From: a virus
Reading direction: 5' to 3' (one strand)
IMG/VR virus record: IMGVR_UViG_3300032284_001223
Span: 1 to 38,889 of that record
DNA: 38,889 nt
Below are positions 6,847 to 36,163 of this stretch, piece by piece. The notes beneath the pieces were generated by a model that saw nothing but the letters and a program-made list of their open reading frames with translations, made no database searches and was not told where the DNA came from. The stretch's first letter is position 1. Each line of letters begins with the position of its first letter. The translations under genes and the position numbers were made by a program.

Positions 6847-9800
6847 ATGGCACTAAATTCACCAGGCGTACAAGTAACCGTAGTAGACGAGAGTTTTTAC
6901 ACACCAGCGGCACCGGCTACTGTACCATTAATTATAGTAGCTTCTGGGCAAGATAAACAAAATGCATCCGGAACAGGAACAGCAAAAGGTACTTTAAAAA
7001 CCAATGCTGGACAAGTGTACTTAATCACAAGTCAAAGAGATTTAACAGATACATTCGGTACACCAGTGTTCTATACAGATGCATCGGGTAATCCAGTTAA
7101 CGGCGGCGAACTTAACGAATACGGTCTACAAGCGGCCTATAGTTTATTAGGAGTAAGTGCAAGTGCGTATGTTACTCGTGCAGATTTAAACTTAACTCAA
7201 CTTGTTCCTTCATCAAGTGAACCAGATGGTGCACCTGTTGACGGCACATATTGGTTAGATACTTCTAATACAACATGGGGTGTATTTGAATGGAACGCAA
7301 CAACACAGGCATTTGTTAATAAAGTTCCTACTGTTATCGACGATTCAAATTCTATCTCTGCAACAACAGACGGTTACACACCAAAACCAAGTTTTGGTTC
7401 AAACGGTTCTTACGCTGTAGTTGCTACAAAAAATAACGACACAGTTGTTTGGTATAAAAATACATTAGGTACATGGGTACCGGTTGGATCGGAAGCATCT
7501 ACAAGTACATTTACATTTGGTACATCATGGGATGTTAGTTTTCCAGCAGTGACCAGCACAGCAACAAACAGTCTAGTAAGCAATAACGGTCACGTTATTA
7601 CAATTAACGGTCAATCTATTACATTAAGTGGTACTACTGTTTCCGCACTAGCAACAAGTATTAACAACGTAATGCATACAAAAGGTGTTGGCGCAAAAGC
7701 TGTAGGTAACTACATTCAATTGTATGCCAGTGCGTATGCTAAATCTAACGGAACCAATGCCGACGGAAAAATTGCTGTCTCTGAAATCAGCACACAGTCG
7801 TCAATTTTAGAAGCAATCGGTATTCCTGCAGGAACTTATGAAAATCCTCAATTCTTCCAAGGTCCTCATACAGCTTACCCAGATTTTTCTATGGCACCAA
7901 GTGGTTCTGTTTATATGAAAACAACAAGCCCTAACTACGGTGCAAGTTGGTTTGTAAAATTATACAGCGCCACAACAGAACAATTTACTTTACAAAAAGC
8001 TCCAATTTATCAAGATCCACAGGCCGCATTGATCGCTATTGATCCAGTAGCCGCAGGATTGAATGTTCCTGTCGGTGGATTGTATATTGAAAACATGATG
8101 GATCAAGCAGAGTTTGTAATCTATCGTAGGAGTGCAACTGGTCCTACAAAAGTTACATCTGCTGTAAACACAAATACAGTAGGTTCAACATCTACAATTA
8201 CAATTTCAGAAGGTACATTAGTTGCAACTGCTCCGTATAGTAGTCCTGTATCAATTACAGTTCCGGCAGGTTCAACAATGGATCAAGTTATAGCGTTGAT
8301 TTCAAACGCAGGTTTAACTTATGTAACAGCCAGTGCGGCAACAACTGACGCAAACGGCGATGCTACATCATTAACTATCCAACACAGCAACGGCGGTGAA
8401 ATTGTATTAACAGGTAGCCTATTTGCTGGCTACTTAGGAATGACACCATGGTCGCGTAATGCGTCTGGTGTAGAAAGTGGAACACGAAATTTCTACTCAT
8501 CAATGACTTCCGGAGAATATGAAGTTAGTAACTGGAAACCATTAGTGGTACAATCTTTATCAATTGCTCCTGTTACAACACCAGCAGACGGTCAGTTATG
8601 GTATAGTTCAGTAGTTGACGAAGTTGATATTATGGTACATAACGGTTCACACTTCGTAGGTTACAGAACTGTATATCCAGGAACAGATCCAATGGGACCA
8701 ATTGTTGCTTCATTAGCACCAACTACACAACAAGACGGTGTTACTGCTCTTGCTAACGGTGATATCTGGATCAGCACAGCCGATATTGAAACATACGGTC
8801 ATGAAGTTTATGTGTACAATGGTAATACATTATCATGGGTCGCTCAAGACGTAACTGATCATACAACACCAAACGGTTGGATATTTGCAGATGCACGTTG
8901 GGCTACGAACGGATATACAGCGGCCGCGGCAGATATTTCAGATCTATTATTAAGCAATTATGTAGATCCAGATTCTCCAGATCCAGCACTATATCCAAAA
9001 GGAACACGTCTATGGAATACTCGTCGTTCAGGATTTAACGTTAAGAAATATGTTGCTAATTACATCAACATTTATTCTAACAGCGGTTTAAATCTTCGTT
9101 ATAATAACGAACACATGGACGGTAGCGCAGGTTCTACACCATATCTAACAGCACGTTGGGTAAGTGATAGTCCTAATAATGCAGACGGTTCTGGAACATT
9201 CGGTCGTCATGCACAGCGTTCAGTAGTTGTTAAAGCAATGAAAGCATTAATTGATACTAACTCAGCTATCCGCGATACAGATAGTTTGGTGTTCAACCTA
9301 ATTGCTTGCCCAGGATATCCTGAAGCAATTCAAAATTTAGTTGCTTTCAATACAGATCGAGGACAAACAGCGTTTGTTATTGGTGATACACCATTCCGTT
9401 TACCGAGCGACGGCACATCATTACATGCTTGGGGATTAAACAGCAACGGTGCTCTTGATAATAACGACATCGGTGCAGTTAGCTATGATGATTACATGGC
9501 TATGTTCTATCCAAGTGGTTATACAAACGATAACACAGGAAATTATATTGTTGTTCCACCAAGTCATATGATGTTACGTACTATTGCAAATAGCGATGCT
9601 AAGAGCTATCAGTGGTTTGCACCAGCAGGTTTACGTCGCGGTGTGGTCGACAACGCAACAGCAGTTGGTTATATCGATTCTGTAACCGGTGAGTTTACTC
9701 GTACAACATTACCACAAAGCATTCGTGATGTGTTAGCAGGTGTCAAAATTAACCCAATAGCAACTTTAACAGGTGCTGGAATTGTTAATTTTGGTCAATA

Positions 9801-10164
9801 CACTCGTGCTAATGCGGCAAGTTCAATGGATAGAATTAACGTTGCACGTTTAGTTGCTTACATTCGTAGACAACTATCGTTAATTGTTAAACCATATTTG
9901 TTTGAACCTAACGATGCACTAACACGCGGCGAAGTTAAAAACGCAATCGAAAGCTTCTTCTTAGAGCTAGTTGCACAACGTGGTGTAAACGACTTTATTG
10001 TTGTTTGCGACACAAGCAATAATACTCCAACAAGAATCGATAGAAGCGAATTGTGGATTGATATCGCTATGGAACCAGTTAAGGCAGTTGAATTCATTTA
10101 TATCCCAGTTCGCTTGCTTAACACAGGGGCTATTGCCGCAGGCAACTTAGGTAGCAACGGGTAA
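6847..10164 (+). CDS. 18: Tail sheath protein (T4 gp18-like), greatly enlarged
   Basis: This is the contractile sheath subunit. The N-terminus (SPGVQVTVVDES, then TVPLIIVASGQ and QAAYSLLGVSASAYVTRAD) and the C-terminal third (from about 780: RSVVVKAMKALIDT, VVPPSHMMLRTIAN, WFAPAGLRRG, INPIATLTGAGIVNFGQYT, DRINVARLVAYIRRQL, ELWIDIAMEPVKAVEFI) follow gp18. At 1105 aa it is much longer than T4 gp18 (659). The extra material, roughly residues 125-690, contains several copies of a G-x-x-W/Y unit ending in a Tyr/His-rich strand (near 132, 352, 581 and 638) and two flagellin-like strand pairs. This is likely a set of surface domains projecting from the sheath. A conventional Shine-Dalgarno and late promoter precede it. 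Confidence 0.93.
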   Translation: MALNSPGVQVTVVDESFYTPAAPATVPLIIVASGQDKQNASGTGTAKGTLKTNAGQVYLITSQRDLTDTFGTPVFYTDASGNPVNGGELNEYGLQAAYSLLGVSASAYVTRADLNLTQLVPSSSEPDGAPVDGTYWLDTSNTTWGVFEWNATTQAFVNKVPTVIDDSNSISATTDGYTPKPSFGSNGSYAVVATKNNDTVVWYKNTLGTWVPVGSEASTSTFTFGTSWDVSFPAVTSTATNSLVSNNGHVITINGQSITLSGTTVSALATSINNVMHTKGVGAKAVGNYIQLYASAYAKSNGTNADGKIAVSEISTQSSILEAIGIPAGTYENPQFFQGPHTAYPDFSMAPSGSVYMKTTSPNYGASWFVKLYSATTEQFTLQKAPIYQDPQAALIAIDPVAAGLNVPVGGLYIENMMDQAEFVIYRRSATGPTKVTSAVNTNTVGSTSTITISEGTLVATAPYSSPVSITVPAGSTMDQVIALISNAGLTYVTASAATTDANGDATSLTIQHSNGGEIVLTGSLFAGYLGMTPWSRNASGVESGTRNFYSSMTSGEYEVSNWKPLVVQSLSIAPVTTPADGQLWYSSVVDEVDIMVHNGSHFVGYRTVYPGTDPMGPIVASLAPTTQQDGVTALANGDIWISTADIETYGHEVYVYNGNTLSWVAQDVTDHTTPNGWIFADARWATNGYTAAAADISDLLLSNYVDPDSPDPALYPKGTRLWNTRRSGFNVKKYVANYINIYSNSGLNLRYNNEHMDGSAGSTPYLTARWVSDSPNNADGSGTFGRHAQRSVVVKAMKALIDTNSAIRDTDSLVFNLIACPGYPEAIQNLVAFNTDRGQTAFVIGDTPFRLPSDGTSLHAWGLNSNGALDNNDIGAVSYDDYMAMFYPSGYTNDNTGNYIVVPPSHMMLRTIANSDAKSYQWFAPAGLRRGVVDNATAVGYIDSVTGEFTRTTLPQSIRDVLAGVKINPIATLTGAGIVNFGQYTRANAASSMDRINVARLVAYIRRQLSLIVKPYLFEPNDALTRGEVKNAIESFFLELVAQRGVNDFIVVCDTSNNTPTRIDRSELWIDIAMEPVKAVEFIYIPVRLLNTGAIAAGNLGSNG

Positions 10165-12622: not shown

Positions 12623-12987
12623 CAATAGCATACACAAATTTACCTACTAATAATAAATCCAATGCAACAGTTCAGGTATTTGATAGATACTATTCTAAAC
12701 CTATTGAATTGAATTCAACAGCCTTAACAGCTATGACAGGATATTTAGAAAAAAAGGGTTTTGGATCCGAAGCGGCTGAATTAATTTCTATTGCTGTTCT
12801 AAAACAAGCTAAAGCTGACGGATATAGTCCTTTTACTGTATTTGATACTATCAAAGGTTTAGACGGCCCTCAATTAACTACATTTATAGGACAAATCTTA
12901 AACTGGAATAGATTAAGTACCAGTACATTAGGAACCATACAAAAAATAACATCAGTTGATGATATACAAAGAAACATATTACCTTAA
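12619..12987 (+). CDS. Conserved phage protein, 122 aa, unknown function
   Basis: I cannot name a function. The pattern VQVFDRYYSKPIELNSTALTAMTG..LEKKGFGSEAAELIS followed by QAKADGYSPFTVFDTIKGLD and LNWNRLSTSTLGT is all-alpha and resembles a small late protein of marine T4-like phages. It overlaps the preceding tube-like gene by 4 nt (ATGA) and the gp4-like gene by 1 nt, so the three are probably translated as a unit. A virion or assembly role is inferred from position. Confidence 0.7.
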   Translation: MTIAYTNLPTNNKSNATVQVFDRYYSKPIELNSTALTAMTGYLEKKGFGSEAAELISIAVLKQAKADGYSPFTVFDTIKGLDGPQLTTFIGQILNWNRLSTSTLGTIQKITSVDDIQRNILP

Positions 12988-13427
12988 TGAGAAATACCGC
13001 TCGTGGAAAATTTGCGCCTAAGAACCCTGAAAAATATGTAGGCATAGGAAACCCGACTTATCGATCTAGTTGGGAATTAACTTTTATGATGTTTTGTGAT
13101 AATAATCCTAGTGTACAGGAATGGGCAAGCGAAAGTGTAAAAATTCCTTACCAAGATCCGCTAACAGGAAAAAATACAGTTTATGTTCCTGATTTTTTAA
13201 TAACGTATGTTGATAAAAACATGAAAAAACATGCAGAACTTATCGAAGTTAAACCTAATAAACAAATGACGTTAGAAGCTGTGGGTAAAAATCCCTACAA
13301 TCAAGCAGAATATGTAAGAAACATGGCCAAATGGGAAGCCGCAAGTGCATGGGCAAAAAGATTTGGGGTAAAATTTAGAGTAATCAATGAGCATGATATT
13401 TTTTATCAAGGTAGTAAAAAACGATAA
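12987..13427 (+). CDS. 4: Head completion protein (T4 gp4-like nuclease fold)
   Basis: T4 gp4 is needed to finish DNA-filled heads. The 146-aa product matches it in length (150 aa in T4) and pattern: GKFAPKNPEKYVG, YRSSWELTFMMFCDNNPSVQEWASESVKIPY, VPDFLITYVDKNMKKHAELIEVKP, and AKRFGVKFRVINEHDIF. The spaced acidic residues (Glu of SSWE, Asp of PDFL, Glu-x-Lys of IEVKP) are those of a restriction-endonuclease-like fold, as in TnsA-type nucleases; the enzymatic role is inferred. ATG overlaps the previous stop (TAATG). Confidence 0.82.
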   Translation: MRNTARGKFAPKNPEKYVGIGNPTYRSSWELTFMMFCDNNPSVQEWASESVKIPYQDPLTGKNTVYVPDFLITYVDKNMKKHAELIEVKPNKQMTLEAVGKNPYNQAEYVRNMAKWEAASAWAKRFGVKFRVINEHDIFYQGSKKR

Positions 13428-13435
13428 GTATCTAA

Positions 13436-14608
13436 ATGGAAATAGCAATTATAGGTAGAGGAACGGCAGGGGCTCAAGCCGCTCTTTATTTTTTAAAAAA
13501 TACAGATTGGAACATAGACTGGTATTACGATTCTAAAACTCCTACACAAGCGGTAGGAGAAGGAAGTCAAACTGATTTTCCCGGTGTACTTAATAATTTA
13601 GGTTTTAATTTTCAAGATCTAAAATATATAGACGGCACGTTAAAGGGCGGGATTAAAAAAGCAAATTGGGGAATGGGATCAGAAGATTTCATGCATCCCT
13701 TTTATCCAGGAACACATGGATATCATTTTAACGCTGTTAAACTTCAAGAGTATATTTTTAATATTTTAAAAAATCAAAAAAGAATAAGGATAATCGATTC
13801 TAATCTAATAAAGCATGAGGATGCTCATACCGATTTTGTATTTGATTGTTCAGGAGTTCCAAAACCGGAATTATTAAAAAGAGAGTTTATACAATTAGAA
13901 ACTATACCTGTCAATTCAGTATATGTTACTCAATGTCCCTGGGAATATTCCCAATTCCAACACACTATCACAGATGCTCAAGCACACGGATGGGTATTTG
14001 GAATACCACTGACTAATAGATGTTCTATCGGATATATGTATAATAATGAGACAAGCACATTAGAAGAGGTAAAACAAGATGTATTGGAAGTTTTCAATCG
14101 ATACAGCTTAACCCCCGGCAATGTTACCAATAATTTTTCTTTCAACAGTTATTATAGGAAAATAAATTTCTTTGACAATGTTGCTTTTAACGGAAATGCC
14201 AGTTTCTTTTTAGAGCCATTAGAGGCTACATCTATCACATGTATTAACATGATACAAACAATGGCACTAAATGTGTGGACCAAAAAAATGTCAATGGAAG
14301 AAGCCAATTTCCAATACACTAGATTAATTAAAGGTGTGGAAAATATGGCTATGTTACATTATTTTAGGAATAAAAAATATCAAACTAAATTTTGGAAAAA
14401 AGCTACTGTTCAAAGTCGTGCTCATTTAGAGACAGCCGTGAAAGAAATCGAATTTGGTAAAATTGTTAGAGAATCTATTGATCCTTTATATCATTCAAAA
14501 CAGCATAACCCAATTCTCGGAGGATATGGAACATGGAGTTTAGATTCATATCAATGGAATATAACACAACTAGGAATTAAAGAAGAATTAAAAAATCTTC
14601 TTAAATAA
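13436..14608 (+). CDS. Flavin-dependent (tryptophan-type) halogenase
   Basis: These enzymes use FADH2, oxygen and halide to halogenate a substrate. The 390-aa product has the FAD-binding start MEIAIIGRGTAGAQAA (family GxGxxG), VGEGSQTDF, then TLKGGIKKANWG (69-79), which aligns with the segment holding catalytic Lys79 of PrnA. GWVFGIP at 185-191 stands for the WxWxIP motif (second Trp is Phe), and FFLEPLEATSI at 257-267 matches the EPLESTGI motif, with Glu263 at the PrnA Glu346 position. It is shorter than bacterial enzymes (about 520-540 aa). A cyanophage relative, VirX1, has been shown to halogenate with a preference for iodide. It lies between head-completion and terminase genes and is probably expressed late. 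Confidence 0.85.
   Translation: MEIAIIGRGTAGAQAALYFLKNTDWNIDWYYDSKTPTQAVGEGSQTDFPGVLNNLGFNFQDLKYIDGTLKGGIKKANWGMGSEDFMHPFYPGTHGYHFNAVKLQEYIFNILKNQKRIRIIDSNLIKHEDAHTDFVFDCSGVPKPELLKREFIQLETIPVNSVYVTQCPWEYSQFQHTITDAQAHGWVFGIPLTNRCSIGYMYNNETSTLEEVKQDVLEVFNRYSLTPGNVTNNFSFNSYYRKINFFDNVAFNGNASFFLEPLEATSITCINMIQTMALNVWTKKMSMEEANFQYTRLIKGVENMAMLHYFRNKKYQTKFWKKATVQSRAHLETAVKEIEFGKIVRESIDPLYHSKQHNPILGGYGTWSLDSYQWNITQLGIKEELKNLLK
14601..14607 (+). promoter_or_regulatory. Late promoter TTAAATA for gene 16, 5 nt from ATG
   Basis: TTAAATA overlaps the last codons and stop of the halogenase gene; ACAAT follows, then the small terminase ATG at 14613. Same 5-nt geometry as at genes 13 and 17. Confidence 0.6.
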
Positions 14609-14612
14609 CAAT

Positions 14613-15095
14613 ATGACTAAAAAACTTGAAGAATTATTTAATTTACCAGAACAGACTAAGGAAGAATTTATTGATCCTGCGTCTGCACCTACAACTCCAC
14701 CTACGCTTTCTTTACAAGAAAAGTTAGATGAATTTGATAAGATTTCTGCCGCCTTACCTAAAGTAAAAGGGTTAGGTGATGTTAGTGATGCAGAACTTGA
14801 GGCGTTAGCAACTAAGGCCGAACAAGCATATGAAGATATCATGGATTTAGGAATGAACGTAGAAGCAAGATATAGTGCTCGCATGTTTGAAGTTGCGGGC
14901 AATATGCTAAACGCGGCTATTACAGCTAAATCTGCAAAAATAGATAAAAAATTAAAGATGGTTGAACTTCAAATTAAAAAATACGCCATAGATAAAAAGA
15001 ATGGAGATTCAGATCAAAATGCAATAGAAGCAGAAGGTTACATTGTTGCTGATCGTAACAGTATCTTGGAAAAACTTAAAAATCTGAATAAATAA
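14613..15095 (+). CDS. 16: Terminase small subunit (T4 gp16-like)
   Basis: gp16 recognises DNA and stimulates the packaging ATPase gp17. The 160-aa product matches T4 gp16 in length (164 aa) and has its central helical hairpin: AELEALATKAEQAYEDIMDLGMN at about 60-82, then ARMFEVAGNMLNAAITAKSAKIDKKLKMVELQIKK at about 89-124. The N-terminus is acidic and Pro-rich, the C-terminus helical. It begins 5 nt after a late promoter motif and lacks a Shine-Dalgarno. The large subunit is about 1.8 kb downstream, separated by two probable internal-head genes. Confidence 0.8.
   Translation: MTKKLEELFNLPEQTKEEFIDPASAPTTPPTLSLQEKLDEFDKISAALPKVKGLGDVSDAELEALATKAEQAYEDIMDLGMNVEARYSARMFEVAGNMLNAAITAKSAKIDKKLKMVELQIKKYAIDKKNGDSDQNAIEAEGYIVADRNSILEKLKNLNK
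15088..15094 (+). promoter_or_regulatory. Putative late promoter ATAAATA
   Basis: ATAAATA at the very end of gene 16, 18 nt before the ATG at 15113. The leader would be about 13 nt with only a weak ribosome binding site (AGGAC). Confidence 0.45.
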
Positions 15096-16915: not shown

Positions 16916-18499
16916 ATGGCACAAAAATACGATACCCTTGTTAAGAAAGCATACGCTACTCAAAAGTGGACAGAAAAAGATATTGACGATATCATGAAAT
17001 GTAATGACCAAAAAATTGGTCCACACTATTTCTTAGATAACTTTTTCTTTATTCAACATCCTGTTAAAGGCAAGATGAAATATAAAGCGTTTGATTATCA
17101 GCGACGTCTTATAGATTCGTATCACGATCATAGATTCAATGTAAACTTGCTTCCAAGACAAACAGGAAAAACAACAACAGCCGCAGGTTACTTATTATGG
17201 TTTGCTATGTTTGTTCCAGATTCAACTATTTTAGTTGCCGCCCACAAATATACAGGTGCTCAGGAAATTATGTCGCGTATTCGTTACGCATACGAGTTAT
17301 GCCCTGATCACATAAGATGCGGTGTCAAAAATTATAATAAACAAAGTATTGAATTCGATAACGGTTCGCGCATCATTGCACAAACAACAACACCTACAAC
17401 AGGTCGAGGTTTATCACTATCATTATTATATGCTGACGAATTTGCGTTCGTTGAACCTAACATTGCTACTGAATTCTGGACTTCAATTTCTCCTACTCTA
17501 GCAACTGGTGGTAAGGCAATTATTACTTCAACACCTAACTCAGACGAAGATCAATTTGCTCAAATTTGGAAAGAAGCAAACAAACGTGTAGATGAAGATG
17601 GAAACGAAACAGAAGTAGGCCGAAACGGATTCTTTCCATTCAGAGCACACTGGAGTGAACATCCAGATCGAGATGAAGAATGGGCAAACACAGAACGTAG
17701 TCGCATAGGTGAAGAACGTTTTCGTCGAGAACACGAATGCGAATTTTTGATTTTTGATGAAACTTTAATCAATAGCATTACACTTGCCGACTTAGAAGGC
17801 ATTGACCCTATTATAAAAATGGGGCAAGTTCGCTGGTATAAAAAAGTCGATCCAACACAAATGTATGTTGTTAGTTTAGACCCTAGTTTAGGTACAGGCG
17901 GTGACTACGCGGCTATTGAGGTATTTTCACTTCCTAGCTTTGAACAGGTAGCAGAGTGGAATCACAATACAACGCCTGTCCAGGCGCAGGTAAGAATACT
18001 TCGAGATATATGTAAGTATCTAGATACAGAATGTAACAATTTAGGAGTAGGATCTCAAATTTATTATAGTGTAGAAAATAATACAATAGGAGAAGCCGCA
18101 CTTGTTGCAATTAATGAAATGGGGGAAGAAAGTATTCCAGGCATGTTTGTAAGTGAGCCTATCAAAAAAGGACATGTGCGCCGTTTCCGTAGAGGATTTA
18201 ACACTACAAATATTGCTAAAATTGCGGCCTGTGCTAAGGTTAAACAATTAATTGAACAAAACCGTTTAAAAATATACAGTAGAAATTTGATATCAGAATT
18301 AAAAACTTATATTGCTCACGGGGTAGGGTTTGAAGCAAAAACTAACGAAACTGACGATTTAGTTAGTTCTTTGTTACTCAATGTACGTATGATAGGTATG
18401 TTAGGAGAATGGGATCCTGCTGTTTACCAACGTATGATTGAGGATAGAGGACTAGAAGAGCACGATTTACCGATGCCTATCTACATCAACACTTTTTAA
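16916..18499 (+). CDS. 17: Terminase large subunit (T4 gp17-like)
   Basis: This packaging motor pumps DNA into the prohead and cuts concatemers. The ATPase domain has the Walker A PRQTGKTT at 80-87, Walker B LLYADEF with Asp174-Glu175, and the coupling motif ITSTPN near 203-208. The C-terminal nuclease domain starts VVSLDPSLGTGGDYAA near 322 with its first catalytic Asp, and the last acidic pair is in NETDDLVSSLLL near 477-488. At 527 aa it is shorter than T4 gp17 (610 aa), as in marine relatives. It stands alone between a terminator and the next late promoter. Confidence 0.95.
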   Translation: MAQKYDTLVKKAYATQKWTEKDIDDIMKCNDQKIGPHYFLDNFFFIQHPVKGKMKYKAFDYQRRLIDSYHDHRFNVNLLPRQTGKTTTAAGYLLWFAMFVPDSTILVAAHKYTGAQEIMSRIRYAYELCPDHIRCGVKNYNKQSIEFDNGSRIIAQTTTPTTGRGLSLSLLYADEFAFVEPNIATEFWTSISPTLATGGKAIITSTPNSDEDQFAQIWKEANKRVDEDGNETEVGRNGFFPFRAHWSEHPDRDEEWANTERSRIGEERFRREHECEFLIFDETLINSITLADLEGIDPIIKMGQVRWYKKVDPTQMYVVSLDPSLGTGGDYAAIEVFSLPSFEQVAEWNHNTTPVQAQVRILRDICKYLDTECNNLGVGSQIYYSVENNTIGEAALVAINEMGEESIPGMFVSEPIKKGHVRRFRRGFNTTNIAKIAACAKVKQLIEQNRLKIYSRNLISELKTYIAHGVGFEAKTNETDDLVSSLLLNVRMIGMLGEWDPAVYQRMIEDRGLEEHDLPMPIYINTF

Positions 18500-25681: not shown

Positions 25682-27136
25682 GTGGGAGCATTTTGTAAAA
25701 TTGTAATCAAGGATGAAGTAAATGTTAAGATAGAAAATTTAGATCTTGACACTCGTAAATCTTTGGTAAAAAAATTCAAGTATTTTGACCAAAAAGCCAG
25801 ATATTCACCTGCCTACAAACTCGGTAGGTGGGATGGATGTACAACATTTTTTGGTCTTGGCGGCACAACTTATCTAAACTTACTACCAGACGTCATTGAA
25901 GAATTAATAAGCCAAGGGTATGATCCTGCGCTTGAAGATCACAGGTCTGCAACTCCCCTAGAATTTGACAAAATTTCTGAAGATTTTTGGGGAGATAAAT
26001 GCTGGCCAGAAGGACATAGATTTGCTGGTCAGCCAATAAGATTGCGTGACGATCAAGTAGAAGTTGTTAATAAATTTCTTGAGAATCCCCAGTGCATCCA
26101 AGAAATTGCTACAGGATTCGGTAAGACAATTATCACCGCAACATTGAGTAAAATTTGTGAAAAATACGGTCGAACAATAGTCATTGTTCCTAACAAAAGT
26201 CTTGTAGAGCAAACCGAAGAAGACTATGTTAACTGTGGCCTAAACGTAGGTGTTTACTATGGTGATCGAAAAGAACTAGGTCGAACGCACACTATTTGTA
26301 CATGGCAAAGTTTAAATATTTTAGACAAAAAATCTCATGAAAAAGAAGATGTATTAGACCTAGCAACATTTTTAGATGGTGTTCAAACAGTCATGGTTGA
26401 TGAAGTACATATGGCCAAGGCAGACGTATTAAAAAGATTATTAACACAAAATTTATCTAACGCACCAATACGTTGGGGACTAACTGGTACTGTACCTAAA
26501 GAAGATTTAGAATTCCAAAATCTACGTGTAAGTTTAGGAGAAGTCGTACATAGAGTTAGTGCAAGCGAACTGCAAGAAAAAGGTGTGTTAAGTGATTGTC
26601 ATGTTAATGTTATACAGACTGCCGAATGGAAAGAATTTAAAAGTTATCCAGAAGAATTAAAATATCTTGTAACAGATGAAGATAGAATGTCATATGTTAG
26701 CGGACTAATTAAAAAAATTGCAACAGGCGGAAATACTCTAGTATTAGTTGACAGGATAGAATCAGGCCGTATAATAACAGAAGCTATTGATGATTCTGTA
26801 TTCATTAGCGGAGAAGTAAAAACTAAAGACCGTAAAGAAGAATATGATGAAGTTAAAACATCTACTAATAAGATTATTGTGGCAACTTACGGTGTGGCCG
26901 CTGTGGGTATTAATATTCCTCGGATTTTCAATTTGGTGCTTTTGGAACCCGGAAAGAGCTTTGTCCGGGTTATCCAATCTATTGGACGAGGTATTAGGAA
27001 AGCAGACGACAAAGACTTCGTCCAAATCTGGGACATAACTGCGGCTACAAAATACGCAAAAAAACACTTAACGGAAAGGAAACGATATTATAAAGAAGCA
27101 AAATATCCGTTCACAATAGAGAAGGTAAAATATTGA
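25682..27136 (+). CDS. uvsW: DNA/RNA helicase UvsW
   Basis: UvsW is an SF2 helicase that regresses forks, branch-migrates and removes R-loops, ending origin-dependent replication. The 484-aa product has the substrate-binding N-terminal domain (KFKYFDQKARYSPAYKLGRWDG), Walker A ATGFGKT at 143-149, DEVH near 240, motif III LTGT near 265-270, and motif VI QSIGRGIRK near 445. It begins with GTG (25682) after AAGGAATCA, an unusual start for this set. The stop overlaps the next ATG by 1 nt. Confidence 0.95.
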   Translation: MGAFCKIVIKDEVNVKIENLDLDTRKSLVKKFKYFDQKARYSPAYKLGRWDGCTTFFGLGGTTYLNLLPDVIEELISQGYDPALEDHRSATPLEFDKISEDFWGDKCWPEGHRFAGQPIRLRDDQVEVVNKFLENPQCIQEIATGFGKTIITATLSKICEKYGRTIVIVPNKSLVEQTEEDYVNCGLNVGVYYGDRKELGRTHTICTWQSLNILDKKSHEKEDVLDLATFLDGVQTVMVDEVHMAKADVLKRLLTQNLSNAPIRWGLTGTVPKEDLEFQNLRVSLGEVVHRVSASELQEKGVLSDCHVNVIQTAEWKEFKSYPEELKYLVTDEDRMSYVSGLIKKIATGGNTLVLVDRIESGRIITEAIDDSVFISGEVKTKDRKEEYDEVKTSTNKIIVATYGVAAVGINIPRIFNLVLLEPGKSFVRVIQSIGRGIRKADDKDFVQIWDITAATKYAKKHLTERKRYYKEAKYPFTIEKVKY

Positions 27137-27639
27137 TGCAAATTTTAACATTAGAAAATAAGACTTATTACTTAAATGATTTACCTGACGAGGTAGATGA
27201 GGATTTAAGATTTACAGTAATGGATAACAGCGACCCTAACAATCCTGATTATTTTTACATTCCTTTAATCTTTTTAGAATCATTTACTGCACCTGCGGCG
27301 GTACTTAAAGTAGGACCATACACAGTTAATATGCCATTAGATTGGTGTTGTATAGTAGGTGACCCAACCGGTCCTGAGATGGAGGTATTACCTTTAACTA
27401 GTTTAAACGACAGAGGTTTTAAAACATTTATTTTTAACCCGTTAAGTTCATTCCGCCCAGAATTTATGGACATTGATATTATTGATGTATACCAAGATGT
27501 TAAATGGTATTTTCCTAAAATGAAAGCAGGTCAACTGCTATGCACCCCCTTACATCCAGGAGAAAAACCTAACTGTGCTTATTTTGTCAAAGAAGTTAGT
27601 AGACAAAGTGAGCTAATAAATTATACAAAATGTTGGTAA
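27136..27639 (+). CDS. Conserved unknown protein, 167 aa
   Basis: The product is beta-rich and without a named function. It has highly regular segments that look strongly conserved: DEDLRFTVMDNSDPNNPDYF, IPLIFLESFTAPAAVLKVG, EVLPLTSLNDRGFKTFIFNP, MDIDIIDVYQDVKWYFPKMK and CAYFVKEVSRQSE. Proteins of this kind occur next to uvsW in marine T4-like phages. The ATG at 27136 overlaps the uvsW stop (TGATG); a TTG one codon earlier is less likely. A role in DNA metabolism is suggested by the operon only. Confidence 0.75.
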   Translation: MQILTLENKTYYLNDLPDEVDEDLRFTVMDNSDPNNPDYFYIPLIFLESFTAPAAVLKVGPYTVNMPLDWCCIVGDPTGPEMEVLPLTSLNDRGFKTFIFNPLSSFRPEFMDIDIIDVYQDVKWYFPKMKAGQLLCTPLHPGEKPNCAYFVKEVSRQSELINYTKCW

Positions 27640-28438: not shown

Positions 28439-28613
28439 TTTTTGGACGGTGGGGATTGATGCTGACGGAAAAGTATTTCTAGAAAACGAAAAGGTCAGAG
28501 ATATCAAACTGTATGTTGAAGGAAAAGAATTTAAATCAGTAGACGAAAAGGCATTGTTTGCTAGTAAATTAGCAAGATCAATCAACGGAACATTGAATGA
28601 TAGCATTGGTTGA
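28431..28613 (+). CDS. Small unknown protein, 60 aa
   Basis: The ATG at 28431 overlaps the gp62-like stop by 8 nt and follows AAAGGAAAGA. An in-frame ATG at 28407 deep in the previous gene is less likely. The product (NNFWTVGIDADGKVFLENEKV, then a helix with EKALFASKLARSINGTLND) looks like a compact beta-hairpin and helix. The function is unknown. Its 3' end overlaps the glycosylase gene by 17 nt. Confidence 0.65.
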   Translation: MNNFWTVGIDADGKVFLENEKVRDIKLYVEGKEFKSVDEKALFASKLARSINGTLNDSIG

Positions 28614-29007
28614 ACCCTTGCGTGATGATCTAATGGTGCAACAACAGATCAACAATTCGTGGGAACATATGGTCGGTGTTATCATGCTTAACCAAACAGG
28701 TCGTAAACCAGTTAAAATGGCCTTACCAGAATTTCTATATTGGTTTCCTACTCCGTACGCACTATTAAATGCAGATGAAGAATTTGTTAAGAGCATTATT
28801 GCTCCTCTCGGTATGGTTAATGTGAGATATAAGAGACTTGTTAGAATGAGTCAAGATTACCTCACATGGGACGGAAATGATGCAACTGATCTGTACGGTA
28901 TTGGAAAATACGGAAGTGACAGTTACGAAATATTTTTTAAACAGAACTACAATGTAGATCCCACAGATAAAGAATTGAAAAGATACTTAGAAGAAGAAAT
29001 TAGATAA
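28597..29007 (+). CDS. MBD4-like HhH-GPD DNA glycosylase
   Basis: The 136-aa product aligns with the catalytic domain of eukaryotic MBD4, a mismatch-specific thymine/uracil glycosylase. SWEHMVGVIMLNQTGRK (21-37) parallels the family's ATIFLNRTSG segment, IIAPLGMVNVRYKRLVRMSQDYLT (67-90) parallels LLKPLGLYDLRAKTIVKFS, and DLYGIGKYGSDSYEIF (98-113) is the helix-hairpin-helix. VDPTDKELKRY (120-130) matches VHPEDHKLNKY, with Asp124 at the catalytic Asp560 position. It is a near-minimal version. It probably repairs or excises modified bases in phage or host DNA; the substrate is not known. The gene is embedded in the replication operon. Confidence 0.8.
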   Translation: MIALVEPLRDDLMVQQQINNSWEHMVGVIMLNQTGRKPVKMALPEFLYWFPTPYALLNADEEFVKSIIAPLGMVNVRYKRLVRMSQDYLTWDGNDATDLYGIGKYGSDSYEIFFKQNYNVDPTDKELKRYLEEEIR

Positions 29008-29699
29008 TGCAACTTGCCGAACAACCTTTCAATTGCGTACATTGCGGTAAGAGTTTTATGAAAGAAAAAACTCTATTTGCTCACATGTGCGAGCCTAAAC
29101 GCAGGGCTATGCAAAAAGACGAAAAACGTGTTCAAACAGGATTTTATGCATTTAATCAATTTTATAAAATTAAACAAGGCGCAAGAAAACAAAAGACCTA
29201 TGATGAATTTTGCAAAAGCTCCTATTACAATGCATTTGTAAAATTCGGTAGTTTTGTTAATAACGCTATACCGATATATCCAGACAAGTTTGTAGACTTT
29301 GTAATTCGAAGTGATGTAAAATTAGATCACTGGTGTCGAGATGAACTGTATGACACCTACTTGTTTGAAATGTTGAAAATTGAACCTGTTGAAAATGCAG
29401 TACAAAGAACAATTCAACATATGATGGAATGGGGCGATAGTCAAAGTGCAAATTTTGCACATTACTTCTTATATGTTAACCTTAATCGTGCAGTTAATGA
29501 TATAAGAAATGGAAGAATTAGTCCTTGGGTGATATTAAATTGTAATAGTGGCAAAGACATGATTAATAAATTTAATGACGAGCAATTAGATATTATTGCT
29601 CCTGCATTTGATGTAGCATTCTGGTTAAAGAAATTTAAATCTGTACCTGCAGATGTTGCATTAGTAAAAGAAATATGTAATGAGGCTGGAATAGAATGA
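29007..29699 (+). CDS. C2HC zinc-finger protein, 230 aa
   Basis: An N-terminal zinc finger (FNCVHCGKSFMKEKTLFAHMC; Cys10, Cys13, His26, Cys28) is followed by a helical region with no enzymatic motif I recognise (QTGFYAFNQFYKIKQGARKQKTYDEFCKS, VKLDHWCRDELYDTYLFEML, FAHYFLYVNLNRAVNDIRNGRISPWVILNC). Such proteins are common in marine T4-like phages near replication genes. It may bind DNA and act in replication or expression. The ATG overlaps the glycosylase stop by 1 nt, and its own stop overlaps the cupin gene by 4 nt. Confidence 0.75.
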   Translation: MQLAEQPFNCVHCGKSFMKEKTLFAHMCEPKRRAMQKDEKRVQTGFYAFNQFYKIKQGARKQKTYDEFCKSSYYNAFVKFGSFVNNAIPIYPDKFVDFVIRSDVKLDHWCRDELYDTYLFEMLKIEPVENAVQRTIQHMMEWGDSQSANFAHYFLYVNLNRAVNDIRNGRISPWVILNCNSGKDMINKFNDEQLDIIAPAFDVAFWLKKFKSVPADVALVKEICNEAGIE

Positions 29700-30055
29700 C
29701 GCGATTATCGGGATTTGTAGAAAAAGGTTGGGGACGAGAAAATATTTGGGCCACCAACGATAAGTATTGCGGAAAACTTTTGGAGTTTAATACAGGCGCA
29801 AAATTCAGTATGCACTTCCATGCTGAAAAAGATGAAACTTGGTATGTGCTTAGTGGTAAATTTAAAGTTATTTGTATCGATACAAAAAATGCCAGTCAGT
29901 ATGAGCATTATTTGAATGTAGGTGATGTGTGGCACAATGAACCTCTTCTTCCTCATCAGGTTATTTGCCTTGAAGCAGGTACTATTATTGAAGTGTCTAC
30001 CCCAGATTCGATAGCAGACAACTATCGAGTATCTAAAGGTGATAGTCAAAAATGA
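29696..30055 (+). CDS. Cupin, mannose-6-phosphate isomerase-like
   Basis: The 119-aa product is a single cupin barrel. Motif 1 is complete: GAKFSMHFHAEKDETWYVLSG at 34-54 gives His40, His42 and Glu47. Motif 2 is VGDVWHNEPLLPHQV near 75-89 with His88-type ligand. This is the metal-binding pattern of type II phosphomannose isomerase and sugar-epimerase-like cupins. It is the first of three overlapping genes ending with heptose adenylyltransferase and kinase, so it most likely acts on a sugar phosphate or nucleotide sugar. It overlaps its neighbours by 4 nt on each side. Confidence 0.85.
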   Translation: MTRLSGFVEKGWGRENIWATNDKYCGKLLEFNTGAKFSMHFHAEKDETWYVLSGKFKVICIDTKNASQYEHYLNVGDVWHNEPLLPHQVICLEAGTIIEVSTPDSIADNYRVSKGDSQK

Positions 30056-30453
30056 AAATAATGGTTAACGGAACTTTTGACATACTGCACCGAGGACATC
30101 TAGACTTATTGCACTATGCAAAAAGTCTTGGAGATTATCTGTTGGTGGCAATTGATACTGATCGACGAGTCAAAGAATTAAAAGGTGATTCTCGACCTAT
30201 TAATAATCAAAGTGATAGGGCATACATGCTAAGAAGTTTGCGATGTGTTGACTATGTTCAATTATTTGACAGTAAAGAAGAATTAATAAACATTATGCTA
30301 ACCTATAAACCAACTATCTATGTTAAGGGTAGTGATTGGAAAAAAGATGCTCCATCGACAGCAGAACAATATTGCAAGGAAGTAGTATATTATGACAGAG
30401 TCGGATCGTATTCAACCACAAACACCATTCAAAATATTGTTAATTGGGGATAA
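30052..30453 (+). CDS. rfaE2: D-beta-D-heptose 1-phosphate adenylyltransferase (HldE C-terminal domain)
   Basis: In Gram-negative bacteria HldE is a kinase-adenylyltransferase fusion that makes ADP-heptose for lipopolysaccharide. This 133-aa protein is the second domain alone: NGTFDILHRGHLDLLHYAK has the HxGH nucleotide-binding motif, LKGDSRPIN is specific for HldE relative to other cytidylyltransferases, YVKGSDWKKD follows, and the C-terminal YSTTNTI is the family's last motif. It lies before, not after, the kinase gene, the reverse of the fused order, and its 3' end overlaps the kinase by 62 nt. Confidence 0.88.
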   Translation: MKIMVNGTFDILHRGHLDLLHYAKSLGDYLLVAIDTDRRVKELKGDSRPINNQSDRAYMLRSLRCVDYVQLFDSKEELINIMLTYKPTIYVKGSDWKKDAPSTAEQYCKEVVYYDRVGSYSTTNTIQNIVNWG

Positions 30454-31159
30454 CTGCATCGATGTGTACCAATATGGTACCGTAGATCGTATTAGTCCCG
30501 AAGCGCCTATTCCTGTATTTGTTCCAACATATCAAGAATCAAAACCAGGTATGGCTGGAAATGTATATGCTAATCTTGTGACATTAGGTTGTACTGTTAA
30601 CATACTATGCGGTCATTCAAGTAAAAAAACTAGGTTGATCGATCAACGTAGTAAACAACAAGTTCTTCGAATTGATGAAGATGTTAAATCTACTCCCATA
30701 ACTTTTGAAACAGAAATTCCAAAAATGTATGATGCTATTGTTATTAGTGATTATTGTAAAGGAGTAGTTACTTATGATATGGTGTATCAATTAATACAAG
30801 AGTTTAAAGGACCAATTTTTATTGATACTAAAAAACACGATTTAGCTCAATTTCAAGGTGCTTGGGTCAAGATAAATGAATTAGAACATAGTAAATTAAT
30901 TAGTGAATGTTCTGGTTTAATTGTTACATTAGGAAGTAAAGGTGCTCGATTATGGGATGAAATTTTTCCAGGAACACCTACTGAAGTTACCGACGTATGC
31001 GGAGCAGGAGATACCTTTCTAGCCGCATTGGTTGTCCAATACCTCTATACAAACGACATAAAGAAAGCTATAATGTTTGCTAATATTGCCGCAGGCATAA
31101 CTGTAAAACATTTAGGAAATTATTCACCATCATACGACGAGATTAGACGTGCCTACTAA
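30392..31159 (+). CDS. rfaE1: Heptose 7-phosphate kinase (HldE N-terminal domain)
   Basis: A PfkB-type kinase matching the first domain of HldE, which phosphorylates D-glycero-D-manno-heptose 7-phosphate at C1. The signature VDRISPEAPIPVF at 31-43 matches the E. coli HldE RISPEAPVPVV segment, VISDYCKGV (117-125) matches SDYGKG, and DVCGAGDTF (201-209) is the PfkB ATP-binding loop with the catalytic Asp207. At 255 aa it is shorter than the bacterial domain (about 318), mainly in the lid region near 60-100. The ATG follows AAGGAAG. It overlaps the adenylyltransferase gene by 62 nt. Confidence 0.88.
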   Translation: MTESDRIQPQTPFKILLIGDNCIDVYQYGTVDRISPEAPIPVFVPTYQESKPGMAGNVYANLVTLGCTVNILCGHSSKKTRLIDQRSKQQVLRIDEDVKSTPITFETEIPKMYDAIVISDYCKGVVTYDMVYQLIQEFKGPIFIDTKKHDLAQFQGAWVKINELEHSKLISECSGLIVTLGSKGARLWDEIFPGTPTEVTDVCGAGDTFLAALVVQYLYTNDIKKAIMFANIAAGITVKHLGNYSPSYDEIRRAY

Positions 31160-34183: not shown

Positions 34184-35600
34184 CGCTGAAATACAAAAAT
34201 TATATCTTGAAATGTTCCTAAGTGATGCAGAAACATTTGTACGCTGTCAGAATATCTTTGATCCAGAGAATTTTGATAGAAAATTTCAAGAATCTGCAAA
34301 GTTTATAAATGAATATGTAGACAAATACAAAGTAATGCCGGAGGTAAGCATTGTTAATAGTGCCACCGAAAGCAACTTTGAATCTGTAACTTTACCTGCA
34401 CAAAACTATGCGTGGTTGATGGATGAATTTGAAAATTTTAGCAGGCACAAAGGGCTAGAACGAGCTATCCTAAAAGCCGCCGACATGTTAGAAAAGGGAG
34501 AATATTCTCCAGTAGAAAAACTGATTAAAGATGCTATTCAAATCAGTTTGAACAAAGATATGGGTACAGATTACTGGGCTGATCCTAGAGCACGTTTGAT
34601 GAAATTAAAAGATAATAATGGGCAAATTAGCACTGGCTGGCCTACTATTGATAAGAAACTTTATGGTGGATTTAAGCGAGGTGAATTGAATATTTGGTGT
34701 GCAGGGTCTGGTGGCGGTAAGTCATTATTTCTAGCTAATCTAGGAGTTAACTTTGCGCTTGCTGGACTTAATGTAATCTACTTTACTTTTGAGTTAAGTG
34801 AAGAATTAGTAGGTATGCGGGTAGATAGTATGATCACTGAAATTTCTACAAGAGACATATTCAAACAATTGGATGATGTAGAAATGAAGGTTAAACTCAC
34901 TGGAAAGAGGGCCGGCGGAATGCAGATAAAATACATGCCTTCCGGCAAAAATTGTAACGATTTGAGGTCATATTTGAAGGAATATGAAGTCAAAACAGGC
35001 AAAAAACCCGACATTCTTTTAGTGGACTACTTAGACCTTATGATGCCTCTATCAGTGAAGGTTTCGCCGTCAGATTTGTTTGTTAAAGACAAATATGTAT
35101 CAGAAGAGTTGCGTAACTTAGCAATGGAAACACAATGCGTAGTTGTTACCGCGGCGCAGTTAAATCGATCAGCGGTTGAAGAAATTGAGTTCGATCACAG
35201 TCATATTTCTGGTGGTTTAAGTAAGATTCAAACAGCAGATAACGTAATTGGTATCTTTACATCACGTGCTATGCGTGAACGTGGACGTTATCAAATCCAG
35301 TTTATGAAAACACGTAGCAGTTCGGGTGTAGGACAAAAAGTTGATTTAGAATTTGATGTAGATACTTTAAGAATCAAAGACTTGGGAGAAGAAGAAGCTG
35401 AACAAAGTTTAAATCAACAGCGTAGTGCGGCAAGTTCAGCATTAATTAACGGACTCAAAAAGACTAGTGTTGTAACATCGACTAATATAGATTCAGAAAC
35501 TGGTGAAATTGATCCAAATGCAGGAGTAGCAGTTGGTAAACTTAAAGCTGAAACAAGTTCATCTCGTATACGAGATCTATTAAAGAATTTAAATTCTTAA
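34167..35600 (+). CDS. 41: Replicative DNA helicase (T4 gp41-like)
   Basis: The DnaB-family hexameric helicase of the primosome. The helical N-terminal domain (1-130) is followed by the RecA-like core: GWPTIDKKLYGGFKRGELNIW, Walker A GSGGGKS at 180-186, a strand VIYFTFELSEELVGMRVDS, Walker B ILLVDYLDLM near 280-289, and VVVTAAQLNRSAVEEIEFDHSHISGGLSKIQTADNVIGI. Length (477 aa) matches T4 gp41 (475 aa). The C-terminal tail is hydrophilic. It starts within the end of gene 61 and converges on the AlgH-family gene with a 4-nt overlap. Confidence 0.95.
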   Translation: MTTNYNAEIQKLYLEMFLSDAETFVRCQNIFDPENFDRKFQESAKFINEYVDKYKVMPEVSIVNSATESNFESVTLPAQNYAWLMDEFENFSRHKGLERAILKAADMLEKGEYSPVEKLIKDAIQISLNKDMGTDYWADPRARLMKLKDNNGQISTGWPTIDKKLYGGFKRGELNIWCAGSGGGKSLFLANLGVNFALAGLNVIYFTFELSEELVGMRVDSMITEISTRDIFKQLDDVEMKVKLTGKRAGGMQIKYMPSGKNCNDLRSYLKEYEVKTGKKPDILLVDYLDLMMPLSVKVSPSDLFVKDKYVSEELRNLAMETQCVVVTAAQLNRSAVEEIEFDHSHISGGLSKIQTADNVIGIFTSRAMRERGRYQIQFMKTRSSSGVGQKVDLEFDVDTLRIKDLGEEEAEQSLNQQRSAASSALINGLKKTSVVTSTNIDSETGEIDPNAGVAVGKLKAETSSSRIRDLLKNLNS

Positions 35601-36163
35601 AGCCAATCGCTAACTTTAGCAGTGGCAATAATATCAATTGCCTGCTCCCATTGATCGTCGCCTTTTAAATTAAACACAGAATCTATAGTAGCAGGAGCAT
35701 CTAACCAACTATGTTTAGTGTTCCAAGGCGGCAATCCTTTGTACTCACCTTCTAATTGACCAGGCGACCAAGCACTTAATCCAACGTAGGTTCTAAATAA
35801 TCTAGGTCCTTCGCCCCGACTAATTGCGGCTAATACACTAATATCTCCAGTAACTCCTATTTCGCTTGTTATAGGAATAGTTGTCATTCCTTGCCAATCT
35901 AACGTATGTAAGATGTGTACTCTTTGTTGTTCTACTGGTCCCCCTGTATAGACTGTATCTGTATACAGATAATCGTTAATACCTGCGCTCTCCATTATTT
36001 TATCTAATGTAATTTTAGTGTTTATTTTGTTAACAATTAATCCCCAAGCACCGTCATTCTTGTGTTGGGCAATTAATACAACTGACTTTTCGAAGATACT
36101 ATCATTAGAACCGCGTGGCGGCATTGCTAATATATGTCCGGTTAAATTTAATGATCCTTGCAT
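35597..36163 (-). CDS. UPF0301 / AlgH (YqgE) family protein
   Basis: The 188-aa product matches the DUF179/AlgH family: LTGHILAMPPRGSNDSIFEKSVVLIAQHKNDGAWGLIVNK at 7-46, YTGGPVEQQRVHILHTLDW near 71-89, GDISVLAAISRGEGPRLFRTYVGLSAWSPGQLEGEYKGLPPW near 109-150. The bacterial proteins have no settled function (AlgH was linked to alginate regulation and may affect gene expression). Length is as in bacteria (about 187 aa). It has a TTAAATA-type late motif 5 nt before its ATG. A bacterial origin and a host-modulating role are inferred. Confidence 0.85.
   Translation of the reverse strand: MQGSLNLTGHILAMPPRGSNDSIFEKSVVLIAQHKNDGAWGLIVNKINTKITLDKIMESAGINDYLYTDTVYTGGPVEQQRVHILHTLDWQGMTTIPITSEIGVTGDISVLAAISRGEGPRLFRTYVGLSAWSPGQLEGEYKGLPPWNTKHSWLDAPATIDSVFNLKGDDQWEQAIDIIATAKVSDWL

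Follow-up and report, generated by a model that had tools for sequence, protein, structure and literature searches.

A short phage flavin-dependent halogenase that groups with SrpI-like bacterial enzymes

What is the gene for a flavin-dependent halogenase (FDH) doing among the head and packaging genes of a phage, and on what would its product act? Phage halogenases have mostly been interpreted, by way of PrnA and VirX1, as small-molecule enzymes. We analyzed such a gene in a viral sequence of 38,889 nucleotides (IMG/VR record IMGVR_UViG_3300032284_001223; here, the window), in which a first-pass annotation had proposed an FDH lying between the genes for gp4 and gp16.

An intact FDH and its active site

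The gene at positions 13436 to 14608 (+) is a single uninterrupted open reading frame (ORF) of 390 amino acids (aa), running from ATG to TAA with its boundaries exactly as annotated, and its product was confirmed to be an intact FDH. As the first-pass annotation had claimed, the FAD site, the Lys, and the Glu were all present, together with the FDH fold and a match to Pfam family PF04820 (Trp_halogenase; E = 1.3e-32, with a score of 113.7 against a cutoff of 21 bits). The protein also matched PHROG 2928 (tryptophan halogenase; 1.6e-70). A profile search of the PDB retrieved 31 chains, nearly all of them FDHs (RebH at ~1e-35), and tblastn retrieved 68 phage records, with cyanophage S-RIM4 at the top (7e-95). 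The kind of enzyme is already known; this one is a member of an abundant phage subclade for which no description was found in the literature searched. The predicted halogenase chemistry is well supported.

An AlphaFold2 model (76 sequences; pLDDT, 95.1; pTM, 0.93) was compared with known structures, including the PrnA and VirX1 structures suggested for comparison in the first-pass annotation. All 50 matches listed by VIA-align were FDHs, with AbeH at the top (Z score of 41.0, with a root mean square deviation of 3.0 over 362 residues) and CmlS last; the Z scores were 35.8 for PrnA, 33.0 for MibH, and 30.4 for VirX1. Against crystal structures of PF04820-type FDHs, Z scores ranged from 30 to 41 over 350 to 370 residues, and the Foldseek result was consistent with these matches. 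The model retained the FDH fold, the FAD motif, and the Lys, and among the best structural matches listed no nonhalogenating monooxygenase was closer.

TABLE 1 Halogenase, active-site motifs, and head and packaging genes around it (positions in the window)
Feature	Positions	Strand	Basis
gp4-like head completion/closure protein, upstream neighbor	12987..13427	+	PHROG 218, 1.2e-40; TnsA-like Pfam; 45% to PAC2
Short FDH, SrpI-side clade	13436..14608	+	Pfam, PHROG, AlphaFold2 model, tree
GRGTAG, FAD-binding GxGxxG, aa 7-12	13454..13471	+	Motif; G7 and G9 99/99, G12 98/99
K70, catalytic Lys (RebH/PrnA K79, SrpI K84)	13643..13645	+	Profile alignment to RebH
GWVFGIP, WxFxIP form of WxWxIP, aa 185-191	13988..14008	+	Motif
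FLEPLEATSI, tunnel/active-site motif, aa 258-267	14207..14236	+	Fits FX[DE]PX[EFL] (PMC8407142)
E263, catalytic Glu (RebH E357/PrnA E346)	14222..14224	+	Profile alignment
Probable gp16 (small terminase), downstream neighbor	14613..15095	+	37% to PAC2 homologue; PHROG 445 in relatives
Large terminase gp17	16916..18499	+	55.6% to Paride/PA5oct

The motifs are collected in Table 1; a VGEGS motif lies at aa 40 to 44. The first-pass reading of the active site stood for GxGxxG and for the equivalent of Glu346, which profile alignment placed at E263, opposite RebH E357. It erred in placing the catalytic Lys within GIKKANW, which begins at residue 72, just downstream of K70; it is K70, in TLKGG, that meets RebH K79. 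Among 99 nonredundant relatives, K70 was invariant (99/99), whereas E263 was retained as Glu in 92 and replaced by Gln in five and by Ser in two. Both columns were absent from the pattern used to fetch the relatives, so that conservation there was not built in. The Glu-to-Gln replacement occurs naturally in homologues from S-SSM7, P-TIM40, Campylobacter phage IBB_35, and S-RIM44; the same change inactivates some of the FDHs studied (PMC8407142).

An isolated insertion in the head module

The upstream neighbor was borne out as gp4 through PHROG 218, and the downstream neighbor is probably gp16, a grade that it owes to its relatives. PHROG 445 ("terminase small subunit") matched 33 of 37 of them (best, 1.5e-6) and the window protein at only 0.0027; the model of the latter, a low-confidence long helical hairpin (pLDDT, 62), was too weak to identify gp16 by structure. 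The large terminase was 55.6% identical to that of PA5oct/Paride-type jumbo Pseudomonas phages, and by its sequence the phage resembles the PA5oct-like jumbo phages. Phage PAC2 (Arenbergviridae) has the gene order of the window (neck, kinase, sheath, tube, baseplate, hypothetical, gp4, gp16-like, and later terminase), with gp4 adjoining the gp16-like gene and no halogenase between them.

Of 155 other loci having both genes, none carried a halogenase between gp4 and gp16. In 12 of the 155, the junction contained a different or somewhat longer insert, the longest being 760 bp; ten loci of related phages had inserts of 400 to 760 bp there. Because the halogenase is absent from all 155 loci, gp4 and gp16 are adjacent in PAC2, and other inserts are present, the gene is cargo, a single, isolated insertion at a junction tolerating inserts. 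With no halogenase at any of the 155 other junctions, the head-module position therefore says little about function, and we dropped it as a functional clue.

The presence of a halogenase at this junction in 1 of 156 loci could also be taken to mean that the cargo gene of this one phage is inactive or in decay. We consider this very improbable, since the 390 codons contain no stop or frameshift and the GC3 of the gene (23.0%) equals that of its neighbors. The protein departs from the residues that are 90% conserved in its clade at a single position (H131 in place of D) and has one extra residue, E145, where 98% of relatives have a gap.

Elsewhere in the window, the tail sheath protein (6847 to 10164; 1,105 aa) was matched by sheath families only over residues ~446 to 1094, so that its N-terminal part forms a long extension. 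In PAC2, the gene for the sheath measures 2,640 bases. A run at 28597 to 31159, encoding an HhH-GPD glycosylase, an unknown protein, a cupin, a cytidylyltransferase-like protein (heptose adenylyltransferase type), and a PfkB kinase, resembles a module of the sugar/ADP-heptose type. An AlgH-like DUF179 protein (PF02622; 1.3e-31) is encoded at 35597 to 36163 (-).

A short phage clade beside SrpI-like enzymes

When IMG/VR was scanned directly with the halogenase protein alone, no relatives were found, and profiles were required: one retrieved 503 relatives and a second retrieved 36. Most of the relatives taken (the best 80 of the 503, on which the details given here rest, and those of the second profile) were 367 to 420 aa long. 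These short phage FDHs lack the insert of ~50 to 70 aa found in PrnA, RebH, and VirX1: the stretch at residues 85 to 97 comprises 12 to 14 aa in the phage short clade versus 57 to 86 aa in bacterial WxW FDHs. The clade is also marked by the motifs GW[VIM]FG[IV]P and EP[LM]EAT. Short-clade genes also occur in tandem, with up to three in a row. In one case, three were interleaved with a 2OG-Fe(II) oxygenase, with PPIC-type prolyl isomerases nearby, and a 345-kb viral contig (IMGVR_UViG_3300027708_000012) had matches at about five places, which we read as about five halogenase genes.

Isolated cyanophages carry members of this clade. The S-RIM4 protein RW110999_041, annotated as hypothetical, is 44 to 46% identical over its full length and has all of the catalytic residues; the short FDHs of S-ShM2, S-SSM5, and Sf-CH8 belong to the same clade. 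The short cyanophage genes occupy various positions in these different phages: beside talC and tail fibers, following the major head protein, or beside gp33.

A genome scan added bacterial relatives, mostly of 420 to 450 aa, from sponge- and marine-associated bacteria and cyanobacteria; one SrpI-like halogenase gene is in the cultured Prochlorococcus sp. MIT 0701. Although only ~30% identical to the phage halogenase, these proteins share WxF, EPLEAT, and a short loop after the HPF motif (14 to 15 aa in the stretch at residues 85 to 97), and their catalytic Lys aligns with K70. Precursors of the NHLP type were encoded at 35 of 80 bacterial loci, nearly all with an LCCCW C terminus, which is the SrpE core of the srp clusters of sponges (PMC10286304, PMC10858898). 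Counted from the MIQPG start, the catalytic Lys of the bacterial proteins falls at position 84, in line with the published numbering of SrpI (PMC10858898). The rows used in our tree are orthologues recognized by srp context and Lys84 numbering, and they stand for the published SrpI.

In a 50-row tree, the phage short clade received support of 100/96, and its grouping with the SrpI-like proteins received 100/100. VirX1 and other long viral FDHs grouped among bacterial WxW FDHs, both there and in a wider quick tree, and a single clade of all viral FDHs, short and long, was rejected (p-AU of 2.9e-6). By this phylogeny, the phage short clade is kin to the SrpI-type peptidyl-Trp brominases. The analogy to VirX1 drawn in the first-pass annotation did not survive this comparison. 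The characterized enzyme of cyanophage Syn10 shares the PF04820 assignment and the catalytic Lys, but it sits on the other main branch and differs in its length (507 aa as annotated), its large insert, and its WxW. Likewise, PrnA, RebH, and PyrH agree in fold and catalytic Lys/Glu, whereas they have a long substrate-binding insert, a longer C-terminal part, WxW, and free Trp as the substrate.

The first-pass annotation had singled out two residues as possible modifiers of substrate or halide choice, Phe188 (the second Trp of WxWxIP, here WVFGIP, aa 186 to 191) and Ala264. Nearly every member of the phage short clade proved to have both, as did all of the bacterial SrpI-like enzymes sampled; they are clade characters rather than oddities of this gene. 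The equivalent of Phe188 was Phe in 84 of 85 short viral rows and in 15 of 15 SrpI-like rows, where uniformity is partly selection, the SrpI-like set having been fetched with a pattern that included WxF; the WxW set was gathered by family searches that did not use this pattern. Could an enzyme altered in this way be a flavin monooxygenase or oxidase, in which WxF and EA let the hydroperoxide oxygenate the substrate directly? The WxWxIP motif, which is variable or absent in proven FDHs, is believed to prevent monooxygenation (PMC8407142); this protein has WxFxIP instead, and it also lacks the Ser and Gly of the Fx.Px.Sx.G motif. Yet the same WxF and EA occur in bacterial SrpI-like enzymes, SrpI itself being a proven brominase; the Lys, for which a monooxygenase would have no use, is invariant across the clade; and only FDHs appeared among the structural matches listed. 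We regard oxygenation without halogenation as unlikely.

Candidate substrates and a possible role

What would the enzyme halogenate? We favor, at an intermediate level of confidence, an active compact FDH that uses host FADH2 and probably brominates tryptophan residues of peptides or proteins. The likeliest substrate would be such a side chain, rather than free tryptophan, because the short loop, WxFxIP, and EPLEA are common to the phage clade and SrpI. SrpI, which comes from the srp clusters of sponge microbiomes and is an obligate peptidyl Trp-6 brominase (PMC10286304, PMC10858898), brominates the C-terminal Trp of proteusin peptides without chlorinating it and accepts free indole but not free Trp; a peptide fused to a protein of 400 residues can also be brominated by it (PMC10286304, PMC12615548). 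The FDH fold, the conserved K70 and E263, the short loop, the NHLP/LCCCW loci, Lys 84, and the tree all argue for this reading. Both the substrate class and the bromide preference are suggested by kinship at ~30% identity, a distance over which substrate or halide may have changed.

Under the favored reading, reduced FAD from a host flavin reductase would bind the Rossmann site and, with O2, yield the C4a-hydroperoxide (hydroperoxyflavin). Halide, most likely bromide, would attack the hydroperoxide to give hypohalous acid, which would travel through the FLEPLE-lined tunnel to K70; there, K70 with E263 would direct electrophilic halogenation of an electron-rich ring. The route through FADH2/O2, hypohalous acid, and an active-site Lys is established FDH chemistry (PMC10858898). 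FADH2 is presumably supplied by the host: in agreement with the first-pass annotation, Pfam detected no flavin reductase family among the ~30 larger ORFs of the window, itself a fragment, and none was found in 12 halogenase-bearing viral records, mostly fragments in which absence is weak evidence.

Several observations weigh against the favored reading. SrpI needs an NHLP leader, and none (TIGR03793) was found in the window or in the 12 halogenase-bearing viral records, whereas the bacterial SrpI-like genes often lie beside NHLP precursors. Proteins with a C-terminal Trp were not enriched near phage halogenases (12 of 225 near versus 30 of 588 far), and such neighbors were discarded as candidate substrates; two unknown window proteins end in Trp (27133 to 27639, YTKCW; 1567 to 1890, TKPW), which is close to chance expectation. 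In a few phage members of the short clade, Gln or Ser takes the place of the catalytic Glu, 2OG-oxygenases showed no local enrichment, and other phage halogenases have been interpreted as small-molecule enzymes (PMC7824862).

The last point leads to the main competing explanation, in which the substrate would be free tryptophan, indole, or a secondary metabolite and its halogenation would alter the chemistry of the host in the course of infection, a role that has been proposed for cyanophage halogenases. VirX1 halogenates many small aromatics in vitro, according to a review (PMC8407142), and jumbo cyanophages carry a predicted metabolite cluster of halogenase, carbamoyltransferase, and 2OG-oxygenase (PMC7824862). 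Carbamoyltransferases and 2OG-oxygenases were also found near short-clade phage halogenases. However, 2OG-oxygenase genes were no denser beside the halogenase than 1.5 to 4.5 kb away, and with no falloff over distances up to 4.5 kb, a functional link to these neighbors was set aside. VirX1 lies on the other main branch of the tree, the window halogenase stands alone in a structural block without biosynthetic neighbors, and SrpI, the nearest characterized enzyme, refuses free Trp, though it takes free indole. A small-molecule substrate is the less probable choice.

A different genomic context is suggestive of a virion target. In 12 contigs, a collagen-repeat tail fiber gene, a PF16778 tail assembly chaperone gene, and a halogenase gene followed one another in the same direction. 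The four members of this arrangement placed in the tree formed one subclade, and the order may therefore reflect a single ancestral event. The wider proposal, that a large family of SrpI-related halogenases spread over many phage lineages brominates Trp in the phages' own virion proteins or in those of the host, is one that we put forward tentatively. No report of phage-encoded posttranslational protein halogenation was found for a viral halogenase.

Because a large clade of phage enzymes is placed next to peptidyl brominases, the role of these enzymes becomes testable, through bromo- or chloro-Trp in the proteins of virions and infected cells, and the test is feasible now with the isolated cyanophages S-RIM4, S-ShM2, S-SSM5, and Sf-CH8, which have such genes. 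If it acts on proteins, so compact an enzyme would be useful for labeling. The kinship described here suggests that, in many phages, halogenation may be directed at proteins or peptides and not at free small molecules.
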